Shown here: positions 26,327 to 33,294 of the stretch, piece by piece
How the letters are laid out: each line of letters begins with the position of its first letter
How positions within the stretch are numbered: the first letter of the stretch is position 1
DNA from: Streptococcus canis
Lineage (GTDB): Bacteria; Bacillota; Bacilli; Lactobacillales; Streptococcaceae
Assembly: GCF_900636575.1 (NCBI RefSeq)
Contig: NZ_LR134293.1
Coordinates: 1,737,501 to 1,801,500 of the forward strand
DNA length: 64,000 nucleotides
Direction: 5' to 3'
Position numbers and translations under genes: made by a program
The notes under the pieces: model-generated
Told to the model about the DNA's origin: nothing
Database searches by the model: none
The model's input: only the letters and a program-made list of their open reading frames with translations

Positions 26327-26785
26327 TTACTGATTATCTTGTGAAAGACTAGCAGAGCTCTCAAATTTATCTTGGTTAAACCAAAGGGCAATCTCACGCT
26401 TAGCAGAATCTAGAGAATCAGACCCATGAACCACGTTAAAAATGCCACCATCATCACCAGGAGCCTGAGCAAAATCACCTCGAATAGTGCCAGGAAGAGC
26501 ATCTTTGGGATTAGTTACCCCCATCATGGTTCGCCAAGACGAAACCACCCGATTCCCAGAAAGTACCCCAATTAAAACAGGGCCACTGGTCATGTAAGCT
26601 TCCAACTCAGGATAAAATGGCTTCGCAACCAAGGCCTCATAATGCTTAACCAAGAGTTCCGAGCTAGCTTGCCGCAACTCCAAGCGTTCAAATGTAAACC
26701 CTCGCCGCTCAATACGTCGCAAAATCTCCCCAACTAACCCTCGTTTCACCCCATCAGGCTTAATCATAAAAAATGTTTGTTCCAT
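26327..26785 (-). CDS. ndk: Nucleoside-diphosphate kinase
   Basis: The 152-residue enzyme has the N-terminal [10 protein letters not shown] block and the phospho-His motif NVVHGSDS. It transfers phosphate from ATP to nucleoside diphosphates. I start at ATG 26785 ([12 protein letters not shown]), where the family begins; the frame is open further upstream to 26830 but those codons are unlike NDKs. The C-terminus is a few residues longer than usual. Its start lies 88 bases from the leader-distal end of the CRISPR array. Confidence 0.92.
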
Positions 26786-26873
26786 CGCTCCACTCTCTTT
26801 CTCCTTTTGACTATTATAACATGAAAACATTTTAATAGAAAGAAGCGAAGATCAACAACAAGCGGTATTATCT

Positions 26874-27108
26874 GTTTTGGGACCATTCAAAACAACATAG
26901 CTCTAAAACTCTATCTGATGAGCGTAAACTTTGAGTGTGAGTTTTGGGACCATTCAAAACAACATAGCTCTAAAACGGATAGCCTTCAGGTCGGTGGCCC
27001 CGCTCGGTTTTGGGACCATTCAAAACAACATAGCTCTAAAACGAATGATCTTACCATTGAAAAAAATATTGAGTTTTGGGACCATTCAAAACAACATAGC
27101 TCTAAAAC
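26874..27108 (-). CRISPR. Type II-A CRISPR array, leader-distal half (4 repeats)
   Basis: Four identical 36-bp repeats lie at 26874-26909, 26941-26976, 27007-27042 and 27073-27108. Spacers are 31, 30 and 30 bases. In crRNA orientation (minus strand) the repeat starts GTTTTAGAGCTATGTTG and ends GAATGGTCCCAAAAC, the Cas9-associated repeat of the pyogenes group with a T in place of the usual C at position 15. The terminal repeat shows no decay, although leader-distal repeats often do. The right side is broken by an IS3-family element. Short frames reading WDHSKQHSSK are translations of the repeat and are not genes. Confidence 0.98.
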
Positions 27109-27176
27109 TTCGGAAGTACAAAGGTAAATTGTGAAAAGGCAACACTTTTCTGTACAGATTTTATAAAGTGCTTTTT

Positions 27177-28007
27177 CTAAACGACTAAACGTTTGGTCAT
27201 CGGTGTTTGGTAGTTGAGGCAGCTGTGAATGCGGTGGTGATTCCACCAGTGGACATAGTCCTTAGTTTTGAGGGCCAATTCTTCTAGCGTCTGGAAAGTT
27301 TCCTGGTGGACAAATTCCATTTTGAAAGCACGATAGGTACTTTCAGCAACGGCATTGTCGTAAGGACAACCTGCTTGACTAAGAGAGCGGGTGATTCCGA
27401 AGGCCTCCAACATGTCATCAATCAAAGTATTATCAAACTCCTTCCCACGATCTGACTGGAATATCTTGACTTTGGTCAGAGCGTAAGGGATGCTCTGAAT
27501 CGCTTGTTTGACCAATTCGGGGGTCTTGTGCCAACCAACTGACAGACCGATGATTTCACGATTGAAGAGGTCAATAATCAAGCAAACATAAGCCCAACCA
27601 TTACCGACACGAACGTAGGTTAAGTCTGACACTAAAGCTTTTAGAGGCTTTTCTTGATGAAATTGTCTGGCTAAGTGATTAGGAATAGCTGCCTCATTCT
27701 TCCCTTTTGAATATGGCTTGAAGGCTGCTTTCTGGTAAACGGATACTAAGTTGAGTCTGTGCATGATGCGACGAATCCGACGACGAGACAGCTGGATGCC
27801 TTCATTTTTCAAACATTTCTTGATTTTCCTAGCCCCGTATCTGGCCTTACTTTCGAGAAAAATAGCTTTGATTTTTTCTTCAAGCTCGGTATCAGATACG
27901 GATTCCACAGCTTTGTAGTAATAGCTAGAACGAGGAATACCCAACCACCGACACATGGCTGAAATACTATATTTGTCTTTGTTAGCAGTGATTACTTCTC
28001 TTTTCGT
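27177..28007 (-). CDS. IS3-family transposase OrfB (DDE integrase)
   Basis: The frame opens inside the end of orfA and is probably made by -1 frameshifting at an AAAAG slip site near 28000 (CGAAAAGAG). From there it reads TKREVITANKDKYSISAMCR, then an HTH_21-type region (ARYGARKIKKCLKNEGIQLS) and an rve integrase core with DDE residues in VSDLTYVRVG, FQSDRGKEFDN and NAVAESTYRAFK. The frame is uninterrupted and ends HSCLNYQTPMTK, so the element may be active. The first ATG in this frame is at 27956, but OrfAB fusion is the usual product. Confidence 0.85.
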   Translation of the reverse strand, partial: TKREVITANKDKYSISAMCRWLGIPRSSYYYKAVESVSDTELEEKIKAIFLESKARYGARKIKKCLKNEGIQLSRRRIRRIMHRLNLVSVYQKAAFKPYSKGKNEAAIPNHLARQFHQEKPLKALVSDLTYVRVGNGWAYVCLIIDLFNREIIGLSVGWHKTPELVKQAIQSIPYALTKVKIFQSDRGKEFDNTLIDDMLEAFGITRSLSQAGCPYDNAVAESTYRAFKMEFVHQETFQTLEELALKTKDYVHWWNHHRIHSCLNYQTPMTKRLVV

Positions 28008-28282
28008 GCCATAATCACCGCCGCTTGCTTTAGGATATCTAGCTGCATTTCGAGTTCTTTATTACGCTTTCGGAGTTCCATCAGCTCACGCTGCTCATCT
28101 GTAAGATTATCAATAGTTTTAAAGGAACCAGTTGTTTTTGCCTGACGTACCCACTTATCGAAGGTTGATGGGGTTAACTCATATTCTTTGATAAGCTCAC
28201 TTCGTTTCATCCCTGCATTGTGAAGGTCAACGATTTGTTGCTTAAAGTCGTCGGCGAAGTGGCGACGTATTTTTCTAGACAT
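27992..28282 (-). CDS. IS3-family OrfA (helix-turn-helix, transposase_8)
   Basis: The 96-residue protein has an N-terminal HTH (FADDFKQQIVDLHNAGMKRS and ELTPSTFDKWVRQAK) and a C-terminal leucine-zipper-like helix (ELRKRNKELEMQLDILKQAA). This is the standard DNA-binding and dimerising OrfA of IS150-group elements. It overlaps orfB in the -1 frame. Intact by inspection. Confidence 0.88.
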   Translation of the reverse strand: MSRKIRRHFADDFKQQIVDLHNAGMKRSELIKEYELTPSTFDKWVRQAKTTGSFKTIDNLTDEQRELMELRKRNKELEMQLDILKQAAVIMARKEK

Positions 28283-28360
28283 AATATTCTCCTATTTTCT
28301 TTAGTGTAGAACACTTTATAAGACTGTCTAGTTTAGTGTAACCTATTCATTGATTGTCAA

Positions 28361-28792
28361 GTTTTGGGACCATTCAAAACAACATAGCTCTAAAACTCTA
28401 GCCCTAGCGCTACAAAACCTGTAGTCGTTTTGGGACCATTCAAAACAACATAGCTCTAAAACATTCACTCATTGACATCTTTCTTTCTTCTAGTTTTGGG
28501 ACCATTCAAAACAACATAGCTCTAAAACTTATATATATCCATTAAAAAAGATGGATACGTTTTGGGACCATTCAAAACAACATAGCTCTAAAACGCTTGT
28601 CGATGATTACATCAAAATTTTTGAGTTTTGGGACCATTCAAAACAACATAGCTCTAAAACGCCAACAATGTTGTCAGCGGTACTGCTATCGTTTTGGGAC
28701 CATTCAAAACAACATAGCTCTAAAACGCTGTCCTTGCGTTTTTAAATTCACAGACCGTTTTGGGACCATTCAAAACAACATAGCTCTAAAAC
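28361..28792 (-). CRISPR. Type II-A CRISPR array, leader-proximal half (7 repeats)
   Basis: Seven identical repeats start at 28361, 28427, 28493, 28559, 28625, 28691 and 28757, with six spacers of exactly 30 bases. They match the repeats beyond the insertion, so all 11 belong to one array. Transcription is leftward: the right end meets the leader with CTACGAG directly before the first repeat (minus strand). The spacer at 28529-28558 holds its own inverted repeat (ATCCAT / ATGGAT). No cas9, cas1, cas2, csn2 or tracrRNA-like anti-repeat is visible in the window. Confidence 0.98.
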
Positions 28793-28930
28793 CTCGTAGA
28801 CTATTTTCGTCCACAATTTTTCGTAATCGCACTATTTGTCTTAGCTAGACTTTAGTCTTAAACAGTCCTTTTCATAGCTCCATTATACGCCAAAAAACCT
28901 ATAGAATCAACTTCCCTTCTTATCCCAGCA
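28793..28930 (-). promoter_or_regulatory. CRISPR leader with promoter and leader-anchoring sequence
   Basis: On the minus strand a -35 TTGATT (28905-28910), 17-base spacer and -10 TATAAT (28882-28887) lie about 90 bases upstream of the first repeat. The leader ends in CTACGAG at 28793-28799, the anchoring motif I recall from S. pyogenes and S. thermophilus CRISPR3 leaders. All parts needed for transcription and spacer integration in cis are therefore present. From about 28930 to 29078 I see only the edge of an IS30-type element, with no trace of csn2. Confidence 0.8.
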
Positions 28931-29078
28931 CGACAAACGCATGAAACCTTCTTTTCTCCTTTGTTCTGTCGCCTTACAATTTTTTATGTGCCCAATTTGT
29001 AAAATTAAATTAGACAGAAAAAGCCATCTATGTTAGGCTCAGATAAACACCACATTTGTCTGAAAGGAAGTAACATAA

Positions 29079-29775
29079 ATGACCCATGCCCATCTTACCA
29101 CAAATGAGCTCGTAATGATAGAGGCATCTGTTGAGAAAGATACTTCTGTCCTCGAAATTGCGCAATCACTTAAGCGAAGCCGTCAAACCATTCATAAGGT
29201 AGTGACTTTCCTCAAACAAGGGCATTCAGCCAACTGAGTGCTATCATTACTATAAGGCGAACAAGGCTCGCTGTGGACGTCGTCAGGCTGTGCTTTCTGA
29301 CGATGAAAAGACCTTCATCCAAGACTACTTGACGCAAGATTGGAACTTGGTTGTCATCAAAGGCACCTCTCCCGATTGCATCTCTTACTCTATGAAAACC
29401 TTATATCGTTTGGTGGAACGTGGTGTATTCAAACCAGAAGAAATGCCTTGGAAAGGCCATCGGAAACTAAATGGTTACTCAGAGAAACGAAGAAAACAAA
29501 CTTTTCGACGGGATTTACATGAGCAAGCTGAGTCTTATCCTGAGTTTAAGACTGAATTCGGTCATTTAAAAGGGGGAGACTATTGTCGGAAAGGGGCAGA
29601 AAACGGCTGTCATCACTTTGGTGGAACGCTTGTCCAAAACCATTATCACGCTTCAAACCAATGGACGTAAAGCCAGTGACAATGAGCACTCCATTCATCA
29701 GTAGCTGACTTGATTTCCAAAGCACCTCTTCAAGTCCATCACATTTGACTGTGGGAAAGAATTTTCAAATTTGCT
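29079..29775 (+). pseudogene. IS30-family (IS1239-like) transposase, frameshifted and truncated
   Basis: The start at 29079 reads MTHAHLTTNELVMIEASVEK and then RSRQTIHKVVTFLKQGHSA before a stop at 29235-29237. The next frame gives CGRRQAVLSDDEKTFIQDYL and on to TEFGHLKGGD (to about 29577). A third gives KTAVITLVERLSKTIITLQT, followed by the FDCGKEFSN catalytic block (about 29752). At least two frame changes and stops are present, and the C-terminal third is replaced by an IS982-type sequence. Inactive. Confidence 0.8.
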
Positions 29776-30566
29776 CTAAATTTTATCAAGACTATTGTCC
29801 TGATGCCTTCAAGCTTCGTCGTAATGTTAACATATTTAAAGTTTCAGATGAATCACTCTTAGTCTTGCTTCTCTTGCAAGCTGAACTAAGGATAAGGTCC
29901 CAACGGCATTTCTATCGTATCTGCCAACTGTTTCCTTGTGGAAGATTACTTGAACGAAGCCGTTTTAACCGACGAGCAAGACAGTTGATTTGGCTAGTTC
30001 AAGTCATCAGACAAGCTATGACTGCTCATATTTCTCCTGATGCCATTGTTATCATAGACAGTTTCCCCTTACCACTTTGTCAATCTGTCCGTAACTATAG
30101 AACACGTATTTTTAATGGCTTGGCAGACATTGGTTACAATGCTTCTAAACATCTTTGGTTCTACGGCTTCAAAGTACATATGCTGGTCACTTTATCAGGC
30201 TATATTCTGAATTATGTTGTGACACCAGCCTCTGTTCACGATATTAGAGCAGTTGATGACTTACTCGAAAATTGCCGACAACTTTATATTTTAGCTGATT
30301 TAGGCTATCTTAGTAGAGACCTTAAAGACTATTTGGGTCAAAAAGGCTATCATCTATGGATTCCTTTACGTCAAAACATGGCAGGAGCTAACCAACATAA
30401 TCATTGGCAACTGATGGCTATGAGACGAACCATTGAGACACGCTTCTCAGAGCTTTATGCTCTTTTTAATGTGGAACACACACTGACTAGAGGTTTAGCA
30501 GGACTGCAGTTACGACTTGAGCAAATTGTACTAGCCTATCATTTGAGATATTTTGAAATTATCTAG
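29776..30566 (+). pseudogene. IS982-family transposase, 5'-truncated
   Basis: The frame ending at 30566 matches IS982-family transposases: KVSDESLLVLLLLQAELRIR, then IVIIDSFPLPLCQSVRNY, GYNASKHLWFYGFKVHM, and ILADLGYLSRDLKD. It has no native N-terminus. The open frame reaches back to 29745, but its first residues (MTVGKNF) come from the adjoining IS30 remnant in another frame, so the full open frame of 273 codons is a chimera. IS982 proteins are normally about 290-300 residues. Probably not functional. Confidence 0.75.
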
Positions 30567-30629
30567 CACCACGGGTTAAAAATCAATTATTAGGAAATTT
30601 TCATATAATTTAATTTTTAATAGCCCACG

Positions 30630-31724
30630 TTGTAAAATAAAGTGCAACAAAAAAGACATGTTCGTCTGATATACTAGAATTCCCCAATTCAGTATGGAAA
30701 GCAGATAAACATGTCCAACATTAATTCTACAAGAAAATCCTCCTATTCTCATCTTTCAGCCACAGAACGGGGTGAAATTGCTGCTTATCTTAACATGGGA
30801 AAGAAACCTGTTGAGATTGCTCGACTCCTGGGTCGTCACCATTCTACAATCTGCCGAGAAATAAAACCTGGTTCAGTAGATCAGGTAAAAGATTAGCATG
30901 GAAAGCAAACCTTCTTCAAGGCCTATTTCACTGATAGTGGGTAGCCTGTCTATGAAACCAATCGTCAAAAGAGTTCTTATCTCAAGTTGAATGACTGCTC
31001 CGCTAGGTTCGTTGAACAATTAGAATCTGCCTTGACGGCTAACAGAAGTCGTCCCTCTACCAAAACGATTTATCGCTATATCAAAGAGGGGCTGTTAGCT
31101 AGTAAACCAATCGATTTGCCTAAGATGGTTCGTATCAGAAAACGTTCTAAGAAAGTCACAAAGACAAATAAGAAGACTTTAGGTAAAGTTATCGAAGAAT
31201 GTCCAGAATATAACAATGATCGTTCTGAATTTGGGCATTGGGAGATTGATTTGGTTCTTGGCAAGAAAACCAAAGGTGAAGCTGTTATATTGACTTTGGT
31301 AGAGCGCCAGACACGCTATGCACTAGGAGTTAAGCTAAAAGACAAGCGGTCCCAAACCATTAACCGTGCTGTCAGGCATCTCATCAGTCAGTACCCTATT
31401 GCCTCCATCACAGCAGATAATGGTTCTGGGTTTAGTTTACTCTCAAACGTAGAGGCTGTCGACGTTTACTTTGCACATCCCTATTCTTCGCATGAGAGAG
31501 GGACAAACGAGAACTTCAATGGCCTCCTCAGAGAATAGGTCCCTAAAGGAGTCTCACTTAATCCACTAACCTCTGAAGAACTTGACAATTATATTACTGC
31601 CATCAATGAGCGCCCAAAACGACTTCTTCAATACCAATCCTCAAAATTCCTGTTTGAGCTATCCCGAACAGCTTAACCTCTGGAACTCTAGTTATCTATG
31701 AACTGGTTGCACTTGACTTGACAA
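30630..31724 (+). mobile_element. IS30-family element, about 1.1 kb, degraded
   Basis: Terminal inverted repeats are recognisable: left TTGTAAAATAAAGTGCAAC (30630-30648) against right GTTGCACTTGACTTGACAA (31706-31724). They enclose one broken transposase gene. It lies directly after the IS982 remnant and completes the IS cluster next to the CRISPR leader. Confidence 0.7.
30711..31675 (+). pseudogene. IS30-family transposase, disrupted
   Basis: The N-terminal part (30711-30896) reads HLSATERGEIAAYLNMGKKP and LLGRHHSTICREI, an IS30 HTH_38 domain, then runs into a stop. The rest is spread over 30987-31538 (KTIYRYIKEGLL; FGHWEIDLVLGKKTKGEAVI; ITADNGSGF; HERGTNENFNGLLRE), which then hits a stop. 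The final part is VPKGVSLNPLTSEELDNYI to the stop at 31673. An internal deletion joins SRPS to TKTIYRYI. Catalytic residues survive but in separate frames. Confidence 0.8.
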
Positions 31725-31777: not shown

Positions 31778-31828
31778 TAAAAAAGAGCCTATCTAGCTAC
31801 TAAGTTAAGTGCTAGATGCGCTCTTTTT
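31778..31828 (-). terminator. Terminator overlapping the 3' end of the 246-residue protein gene
   Basis: On the minus strand AAAAAGAGCGCATCTAGC pairs with GCTAGATAGGCTCTTTTT, with one mismatch, and ends in a T-run. The left arm lies inside the last codons of the gene, whose stop is at 31805-31807. Confidence 0.65.
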
Positions 31829-32545
31829 GGTTACCTTTTTAAAAATAATTTTTTCATCACCTAATAACTCAAGTTTCTTGCCAAAGCGGGTGTAGTCAAA
31901 ATGCCCATTAGGCTTTGTTATCCCCTTAGAAAGATAGGTATGTCCTGTAGAGAGTTCTTCAATATCAATCGTATGTAAGATTCTGTTAACCCTTCCTTTA
32001 ATCACGACAGCCGATAAACTCCCTGTTTCATGATTGTAATCACCTCCAATATTAGAGGCCAATTTTTCAAAAGCCTGATCTAAAATCAATTCTAATTCAT
32101 GGTCGGCAGGCATGCTACTTTCAACAATCTGGCGTTCTTCTGGACTCAAATCACCAATCACTAAATGGTTTTCTTTTAATGTTCTTAGTAATTCATGCTG
32201 ATGGTAGGAGGCCAATCGCTTTGCAAAGGCATCTTTTTCGACCTGAACGCGAAAACTTAAGTGAATCTTATTATCTTTAACCTTTAAAATCATCTCAGAT
32301 GATGTTAACAAACTATCATCAATCAAGGGACTTTGATGCAGGCCTGTAAGTCGTTTTGCAAAATCATCTCCTAATTTTTGATCAATACTGGTTGTCTTCC
32401 AGGTGCCCTCAATAGAGCTATTGCGGTACCTGATTGCAAATAATACAACAAGTAAGATGAGAAAAAGGATAAATACAAAAAGGGCATTGCATTGGTCCCA
32501 TAACAATGACTTCCTTTTAGGCTGCCCTACGGCTACTTGTGTCAT
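31805..32545 (-). CDS. Membrane-anchored hypothetical protein
   Basis: The 246-residue protein has a short cytoplasmic N-terminus, one membrane span near residues 25-45 (NALFVFILFLILLVVLFAIR) and an extracytoplasmic domain of about 200 residues. That domain opens with SSIEGTWKTTSID, a lipocalin-like start. I do not recognise a named family; it looks like a streptococcal conserved protein. It stands alone between the insertion-sequence cluster and engB and has its own terminator. Function unknown. Confidence 0.65.
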   Translation of the reverse strand: MTQVAVGQPKRKSLLWDQCNALFVFILFLILLVVLFAIRYRNSSIEGTWKTTSIDQKLGDDFAKRLTGLHQSPLIDDSLLTSSEMILKVKDNKIHLSFRVQVEKDAFAKRLASYHQHELLRTLKENHLVIGDLSPEERQIVESSMPADHELELILDQAFEKLASNIGGDYNHETGSLSAVVIKGRVNRILHTIDIEELSTGHTYLSKGITKPNGHFDYTRFGKKLELLGDEKIIFKKVTKKSASST

Positions 32546-32694: not shown

Positions 32695-33294
32695 TTATAG
32701 GTGTGCTAAAATAGCATCCCATGAGTCATCAATACCAATCCGGTCAACCGCTGAAAAAATGATAAAGGTATCTTCTTTATCAAAATTCAAAGCCTTTTTA
32801 ACCATCGACTCATGCTTGTTCCATTTGCCACGAGGAATCTTATCTGCTTTGGTTGCAACAATAATAGCAGGAATGTCATAGTACTTCAAAAAGTCATACA
32901 TCTGAATATCTTCTTTTGAAGGGGCATGACGCAAATCAACCAAACTCACAACTGCACGCAGATTATCTCTGCAGGTTAAGTATTCTTCAATCATCTTTCC
33001 CCATTTGGCTCGTTCACTTTTGGAGACCTTGGCATAACCATAGCCAGGAACATCGACAAAGCGAAGCTTATCATCAATATTGAAGAAATTTAATAATTGT
33101 GTTTTTCCTGGTTTACTTGAGGTTCTCGCCAAATTTTTGCGACCCAGTATGGTATTAATAAAACTAGACTTGCCAACATTAGAACGTCCAGCTAAAGCAA
33201 TTTCTGGTAGGTCATCTTGGGGGTAGTGGGATTTATTGGTAGCACTCAGTAAAATCGAGGCATTATGTGTGTTTAGAACTTGTTCTTCAGCCAT
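32695..33294 (-). CDS. engB: Ribosome biogenesis GTPase EngB (YsxC/YihA)
   Basis: This 199-residue GTPase has G1 [12 protein letters not shown] near residue 36, G3 DVPGYG, G4 [11 protein letters not shown] and G5 FSAVD. It is needed for assembly of the large ribosomal subunit. It lies 9 bases after clpX on the same strand, a conserved pairing in streptococci and other Firmicutes. Length is normal. Confidence 0.95.

Follow-up and report, generated by a model that had tools for sequence, protein, structure and literature searches.

We conclude, with a probability of roughly 0.8, that the CRISPR array in the stretch of Streptococcus canis DNA analysed here (64,000 nucleotides, called the window) is the second array of one type II-A system, whose Cas9 operon, some 300 kb distant, was parted from it by an inversion. 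As judged from sequence, it is a real and probably usable second array of a complete type II-A system. The absence of cas genes beside an array does not in itself make it an orphan, and the gene order of relatives separates loss from relocation.

The array, its leader and its flanks

The window array (26874-28792, minus strand) and its surroundings are laid out below. Gene labels here and elsewhere (glmM, hemN, nagD, DUF1461, ndk, lepA, engB, clpX, rplJ, and clpL) were assigned by reading the sequences, with a Pfam check for the Clp-type ATPase, and "IS3-family" is our reading of Pfam domains.

26327..26785, minus strand: ndk, the gene after a cas-associated array in several related streptococci
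26786..26873, minus strand: region upstream of ndk, 59 bp of which are matched at 95% identity in the relative G035, where CRISPR repeat remnants precede ndk
26874..27108, minus strand: distal block of the array, with 4 repeats (26874-26909, 26941-26976, 27007-27042, 27073-27108) and 3 spacers
27131..28349, minus strand: IS3-family element in spacer 7 (orfA 27992-28282, orfB 27177-27956; target duplication TTG, 3 bp)
28361..28792, minus strand: leader-proximal block of the array, with 7 repeats and 6 spacers
28793..28911, minus strand: leader, with promoter-like TTGATT-17-TATAAT and terminal CTACGAG
28912..28972, strand not applicable: stretch of about 60 bp between the leader and a transposase remnant, with no match in the relatives compared
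28973..31538, plus strand: remnants of transposases at the breakpoint on the engB side; relatives have a Clp-type ATPase gene in this place
31805..32545, minus strand: hyp246, a hypothetical gene with no Pfam match
32695..33294, minus strand: engB, which is near rplJ in relatives

All 11 repeats are identical over their 36 bp and pass the gathering score of Rfam CRISPR-DR22, and the nine uninterrupted spacers are all unique, measuring 30 nt in eight cases and 31 nt in the ninth. Regular repeats with unique spacers of about 30 bp are those of a type II-A array, which is how an earlier note on this DNA had described it. The leader that it had called complete does carry the promoter-like sequence, with CTACGAG abutting the first repeat. 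The leader-end anchoring motif has a role in type II-A arrays, and across 30 aligned leaders we noticed that its CGA is invariant, the variants being CTACGAG, CCACGAG, and CTGCGAG. The ndk side is the trailer end of the array, about 90 bp upstream of ndk. Because a full IS3-family element sits in the seventh spacer, the array is split into blocks of seven and four repeats, and transcription of the distal four could be halted by this element.

Using the genome's own proteins as queries, tblastn (E<=0.01) detected no cas9, cas1, cas2, or csn2 in the 64-kb window, where no tracrRNA was found at the Rfam gathering score either, and no cas genes adjoin the array. Both absences had been remarked on in the earlier note, as had insertion-sequence remains upstream of the leader, which are the transposase remnants between the leader and engB. 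These comprise a repeated element from about 28973, a DDE transposase (29745-30566), and an HTH_38 and rve pair (30711-31538). The repeated element, presumably IS30-like (by reading alone), has similar copies in 67 of 279 genomes of the genus, and its open reading frame at 29290-29667 gave no Pfam match. Three things had been missed, namely the element within the array, the roughly 60 bp beside the leader, which are not part of insertion-sequence copies elsewhere, and a matching cas locus.

A cas-bearing locus on the same chromosome

The source genome is a single contig of 2,084,744 bp, and its cas-locus region (L010) reads, in order, DUF1461, tracrRNA, cas9, cas1, cas2, csn2, leader, three repeats, an IS3-family copy, and rplJ. 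The genome-wide search that the earlier note had proposed, for cas9, cas1, cas2, csn2, and a matching tracrRNA, finds all of them about 303 kb from the window array, on the opposite strand. The proteins pass the NCBIfam cut-offs for Cas9, type II Cas1, Cas2, and type II-A Csn2, and the tracrRNA scores 101.9 bits against Rfam RF02348. Cas9 has one match in the genome (PF16592, E 3.9e-179; 1375 aa). The open reading frames of the whole cas operon, together with the tracrRNA, are kept. We take 1375 aa to be the length of S. canis Cas9. Moreover, the protein has a 10-residue stretch at 367-376, the very positions at which a loop of S. canis Cas9 is placed in one paper (PMC11848528). The stretch and the length, both read from the sequence, suggest that this protein is S. 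canis Cas9. The CRISPR types listed for S. canis in another source are II-A and I-C (PMC8841824).

The cas-side array consists of three further repeats (1463181-1463348, plus strand), and all 14 copies in the genome (11 in the window and three here) are identical over 36/36 bp, such that the window array has the very repeat of the cas-bearing array of its own genome. The cas-side leader (1463062-1463180 on contig C1) is identical to the window leader over 119/119 bp; with the first repeat included, the two arrays share 155/155 bp in inverted relative orientation. Homology of the leaders reaches 119 bp before the repeat and ends one base before TTGATT. The IS3-family copy that cuts the cas-side array is 99.9% identical to the one within the window array. 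No spacer is common to the nine uninterrupted ones of the window and the three of the cas side (the totals being 10, one interrupted, versus three), and therefore at least one array has gained spacers since the parting, if both derive from one array. A search of the genome with a 25-base repeat pattern, allowing up to 3 mismatches, returned the 14 repeats, the tracrRNA, and nothing else, and on this result we rejected the idea that the remainder of the cas-side array lies elsewhere in the genome.

Gene order in relatives and recurrent leaders

In a comparison set of one genome per species, the order cas9-cas1-cas2-csn2-leader-array-ndk is found in S. agalactiae (L051), G074 (L069, with csn2 interrupted), G038 (L101), and G044 (L102), and the relevant contigs of S. 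uberis and S. phocae start inside an array that precedes ndk. DUF1461 is followed by ndk in S. ictaluri, S. didelphis, S. catagoni, HF-1907, S. ferus, and G151, and in these six the gap between the two genes gave no repeat or cas match. Among the 13 named Streptococcus ndk loci, five (L042-L045 and L052) show neither DUF1461 nor lepA within the fetched stretch. As for the other flank, 15 of 22 genomes have engB and rplJ on the same strand and no more than 6.5 kb apart; the other seven comprise the source genome and G174, with the two genes apart on one contig, four genomes with them on different contigs (G014, G275, G078, and G012), and G016, for which no engB position was listed. A Clp-type ATPase gene comes after engB in all five regions read, with other genes, not rplJ, beyond it in G174. 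The G047 region gave no hyp246. Moreover, ndk and rplJ are on opposite strands and 213-416 kb apart in 11 of the 12 other genomes that have both on one contig, a count that leaves out 10 genomes (the source genome itself, and those lacking an ndk match or with the genes on different contigs). The sole exception, the S. pyogenes-like G174, has engB not beside rplJ, and rplJ and ndk not on opposite strands; because it breaks both patterns, the region also rearranges in other ways.

Two relatives show further changes at this locus. In G174, the leader and a truncated first repeat give way to phage-like genes (L066:9456-19001, L104), and about 38 kb further on there is a degenerate repeat, together with a match to ndk that is broken by five internal stops. 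In G035, the cas operon is gone, and what stands between DUF1461 and ndk is a tracr sequence with two repeat remnants; by eye (L081:8380-8800), the tracr sequence runs directly into a repeat, followed by one spacer, a degenerate terminal repeat, and then ndk. From its sequence, the loss in G035 appears to have come about by recombination between the tracrRNA anti-repeat and the CRISPR repeat.

These arrangements support a putative ancestral order of glmM-hemN-nagD-DUF1461-cas9-cas1-cas2-csn2-leader-array-ndk-lepA, with engB-(Clp-type ATPase gene)-rplJ at a distance of some 200-400 kb and with ndk and rplJ on opposite strands. In the source genome, the partners are exchanged, as cas-leader-array-IS-rplJ on the one hand and ndk-array-leader-IS remnants-hyp246-engB on the other, and we therefore read the roughly 300-kb segment between the two junctions as inverted. 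Each end of the inversion carries a leader and array, mutually inverted. In a sample of 20 stretches (19% of the chromosome) plus the window and L010, GC skew has two sign changes, one at 0.54-0.62 Mb and the other at 1.58-1.62 Mb. The second is flanked by the junctions, of which the one at 1.463 Mb is about 117-157 kb from it and the one at 1.764 Mb about 144-186 kb. Since longer open reading frames run toward this second change from both sides, we read it as the terminus, and the inversion probably spans it. At the breakpoints, neither the 60 bp or so by the window leader nor the first 120 bp to the right of the cas-side insertion sequence has a match in the relatives compared. The Clp-type ATPase gene of the engB flank is missing in the source genome, where the best match is of 50% identity. 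The two IS3-family copies were also considered as the agents of the inversion, and rejected, as they are in direct orientation.

Using a leader sequence model built from 34 sequences, we found leaders in at least 82 of 284 Streptococcus genomes, and more than one leader in at least seven of these 82. Both counts are lower bounds, with limited candidates scored per genome under strict filters, and they include partial leaders at contig ends or gaps that are possibly assembly effects. Given these seven genomes, leader duplication recurs. Besides the source genome, with its two leaders, G038 has a second leader and 19 repeats between ndk and lepA (L101), and G044 a second leader and a partial repeat in the same interval (L102). 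G047 has two extra leaders at unrelated places (L074:1-250 on contig C19 and L075:12417-12600 on C16), each with a single degenerate terminal repeat and trailer and no spacers; by our reading, one is presumably beside ribosomal genes and the other beside arginine-pathway genes. Outward-facing leaders flank the cas operon in G177 and, as deduced across contig ends, in G154. In G177 (L128), a 19-repeat array faces outward upstream of cas9, with one repeat after csn2, and in G154 (L127/L130), outward leaders stand at both ends of the cas contig, from which we infer a second array between the tracrRNA and cas9. Finally, G014 has two leader-repeat loci (L067, L129), with no cas match in the fetched stretches (all of contig C30 and the first 8 kb of C22).

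In the course of events that we favour, a copy of the leader and array would have arisen near rplJ, either before the inversion or together with it. The two inverted arrays would then have undergone homologous recombination, which flipped the segment and exchanged the array tails. The Clp-type ATPase gene would have been lost at the engB-side breakpoint, with insertion-sequence activity. Copying first is preferred because extra leaders occur elsewhere in other genomes. A single event, in which staggered breaks at the CRISPR locus copied the leader and array into both junctions, inverted, is a possibility that we regard as doubtful. It differs from the favoured course in the order of steps only, with no earlier ectopic array, asks for one event rather than two, and would fit leaders that are identical over all 119 bp. 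However, the extra leaders at other places in G038, G044, G047, G154, and G177 indicate that copying happens on its own, and the two arrays have no spacer in common, though an insertion sequence cuts the cas-side tail. The general interest lies in the repeated duplication of the leader and array. Rather tentatively, the leader and first repeat may form, in these streptococci, a unit that is copied recurrently to new sites and gathers spacers there via distant adaptation genes, with inverted copies acting as recombination ends that flip large chromosome segments, one Cas9 running several scattered arrays, and array copies shaping gene order. The recurring extra leaders make array multiplication a testable question.

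Spacer targets, service in trans and known systems

Six of the nine uninterrupted window spacers match streptococcal phages with no or one mismatch (S2, S3, S8, and S10 exactly; S5 and S9 with a single mismatch to the phage record that was read), and S1, S4, and S6 have no phage match among those listed. On the cas side, one of three spacers matches a phage with one mismatch, and the other two have no close match, the weak matches of one of these two (86.7-89.7%) being left uncounted. The phages matched by window spacers have S. canis, S. dysgalactiae, S. pyogenes, and S. equi as their recorded sources. Read from a single phage record for each spacer, the PAM flanks of the matched spacers of both arrays are CAG, CTG, TAG, ATG, CAG, AAG, and TAG, giving G at the third position in 7/7 (six window and one cas-side). 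The PAM of S. canis Cas9 is stated as NNG in PMC11848528, and all six matched window spacers thus have the PAM of the distant Cas9, provided that the latter is S. canis Cas9, as suggested above. We also observed that the flanks (L106-L112) read NNG, then T or C, then T in 7/7, which is narrower than NNG. For the 12 spacers other than the interrupted one, no self-target was found (best 21 nt, 90%, E 0.75), and the six leader-proximal spacers gave eight plasmid records, none at >=90% identity. As a separate observation, the prophage records Javan263 (MK448721.1:5027-5076), Javan169 (MK448690.1:3844-3879), and Javan454 (MK448945.1:4629-4664) each hold one stretch resembling a CRISPR repeat.

The duplex of the repeat with the anti-repeat of the distant tracrRNA has a predicted energy of -42.6 kcal/mol, whereas 200 shuffles averaged -11.7 and reached -23.5 at best. 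We propose that the window array would be transcribed from its own leader promoter, that its pre-crRNA would pair with the distant tracrRNA, and that the distant Cas proteins would use the array in trans for both interference and acquisition. Service in trans had been the second possibility raised in the earlier note, and as far as sequence goes it stands, with a matching locus, an identical leader, and a common PAM. It is improbable that the array is instead little or not transcribed and a neutral remnant. An insertion sequence does interrupt it, but its 11 identical repeats and intact leader promoter argue against decay, as do the matches to streptococcal phages with the expected PAM and the 10 spacers (one interrupted) as compared with three on the cas side.

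The other suggestion of the earlier note was a recent orphan, left unserved when insertion sequences removed a cas operon between the leader and engB, and this we consider highly improbable. Insertion-sequence remnants do begin about 60 bp past the window leader, and G035, with tracr and repeat remnants before ndk in place of its cas operon, is a precedent. However, the genome has a Cas9 operon at another place, with a leader of its own and full-length cas genes, such that a matching cas locus is left; the window has no cas piece; and glmM to DUF1461, the cas neighbours in relatives, adjoin the surviving operon and not engB. The deletion reading fails because, in several relatives, ndk follows a cas array or DUF1461 and engB is near rplJ. 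By this gene order, we reject a cas deletion from the ndk-engB interval, which is not ancestral but a junction made by the inversion. That the array once stood beside cas holds for the ndk-side flank, given the cas-bearing array upstream of ndk in relatives. A misjoining of the single-contig genome at the two arrays is scarcely credible, for although an inverted identical 155 bp and near-identical insertion-sequence copies exist, the former is short, and the latter could not yield a false inversion because their orientation is direct.

With a second array probably parted from its Cas9 operon by inversion, S. canis provides a natural example of two arrays that have identical leaders and may both be served by one Cas9, and in it the sufficiency of the leader sequence alone for distant adaptation is testable. 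Among the titles and abstract openings covered, with most subscription papers outside, we found none that deals with a split locus in S. canis or with copies of the leader at streptococcal inversion ends. CRISPR regions, not of type II-A, reportedly lie at inversion ends in Thermotoga. The title of a Thermotogales paper (DeBoy et al., 2006), an entry in the reference list of PMC5637354, pairs large-scale inversions with CRISPR diversification. According to two papers (PMC4894674, PMC4580645), CRISPR2 of Enterococcus faecalis is an orphan type II-A array that works with the Cas9 of CRISPR1, and its defence needs this distant Cas9. As in the window array, there is no adjacent cas, the repeat is that of the cas-bearing locus, and the predicted PAM is common to both. 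CRISPR2 is, however, ubiquitous in its species and often lacks its partner, whereas in S. canis the partner is present and was parted by the inversion. The type II-A loci of S. pyogenes and S. agalactiae share the cas order, repeat type, and a related leader with S. canis, and the S. agalactiae locus lies before ndk. In both, though, the array and cas genes are together (in G174 with a prophage between the leader and ndk), whereas S. canis has a second leader and array 303 kb from cas.
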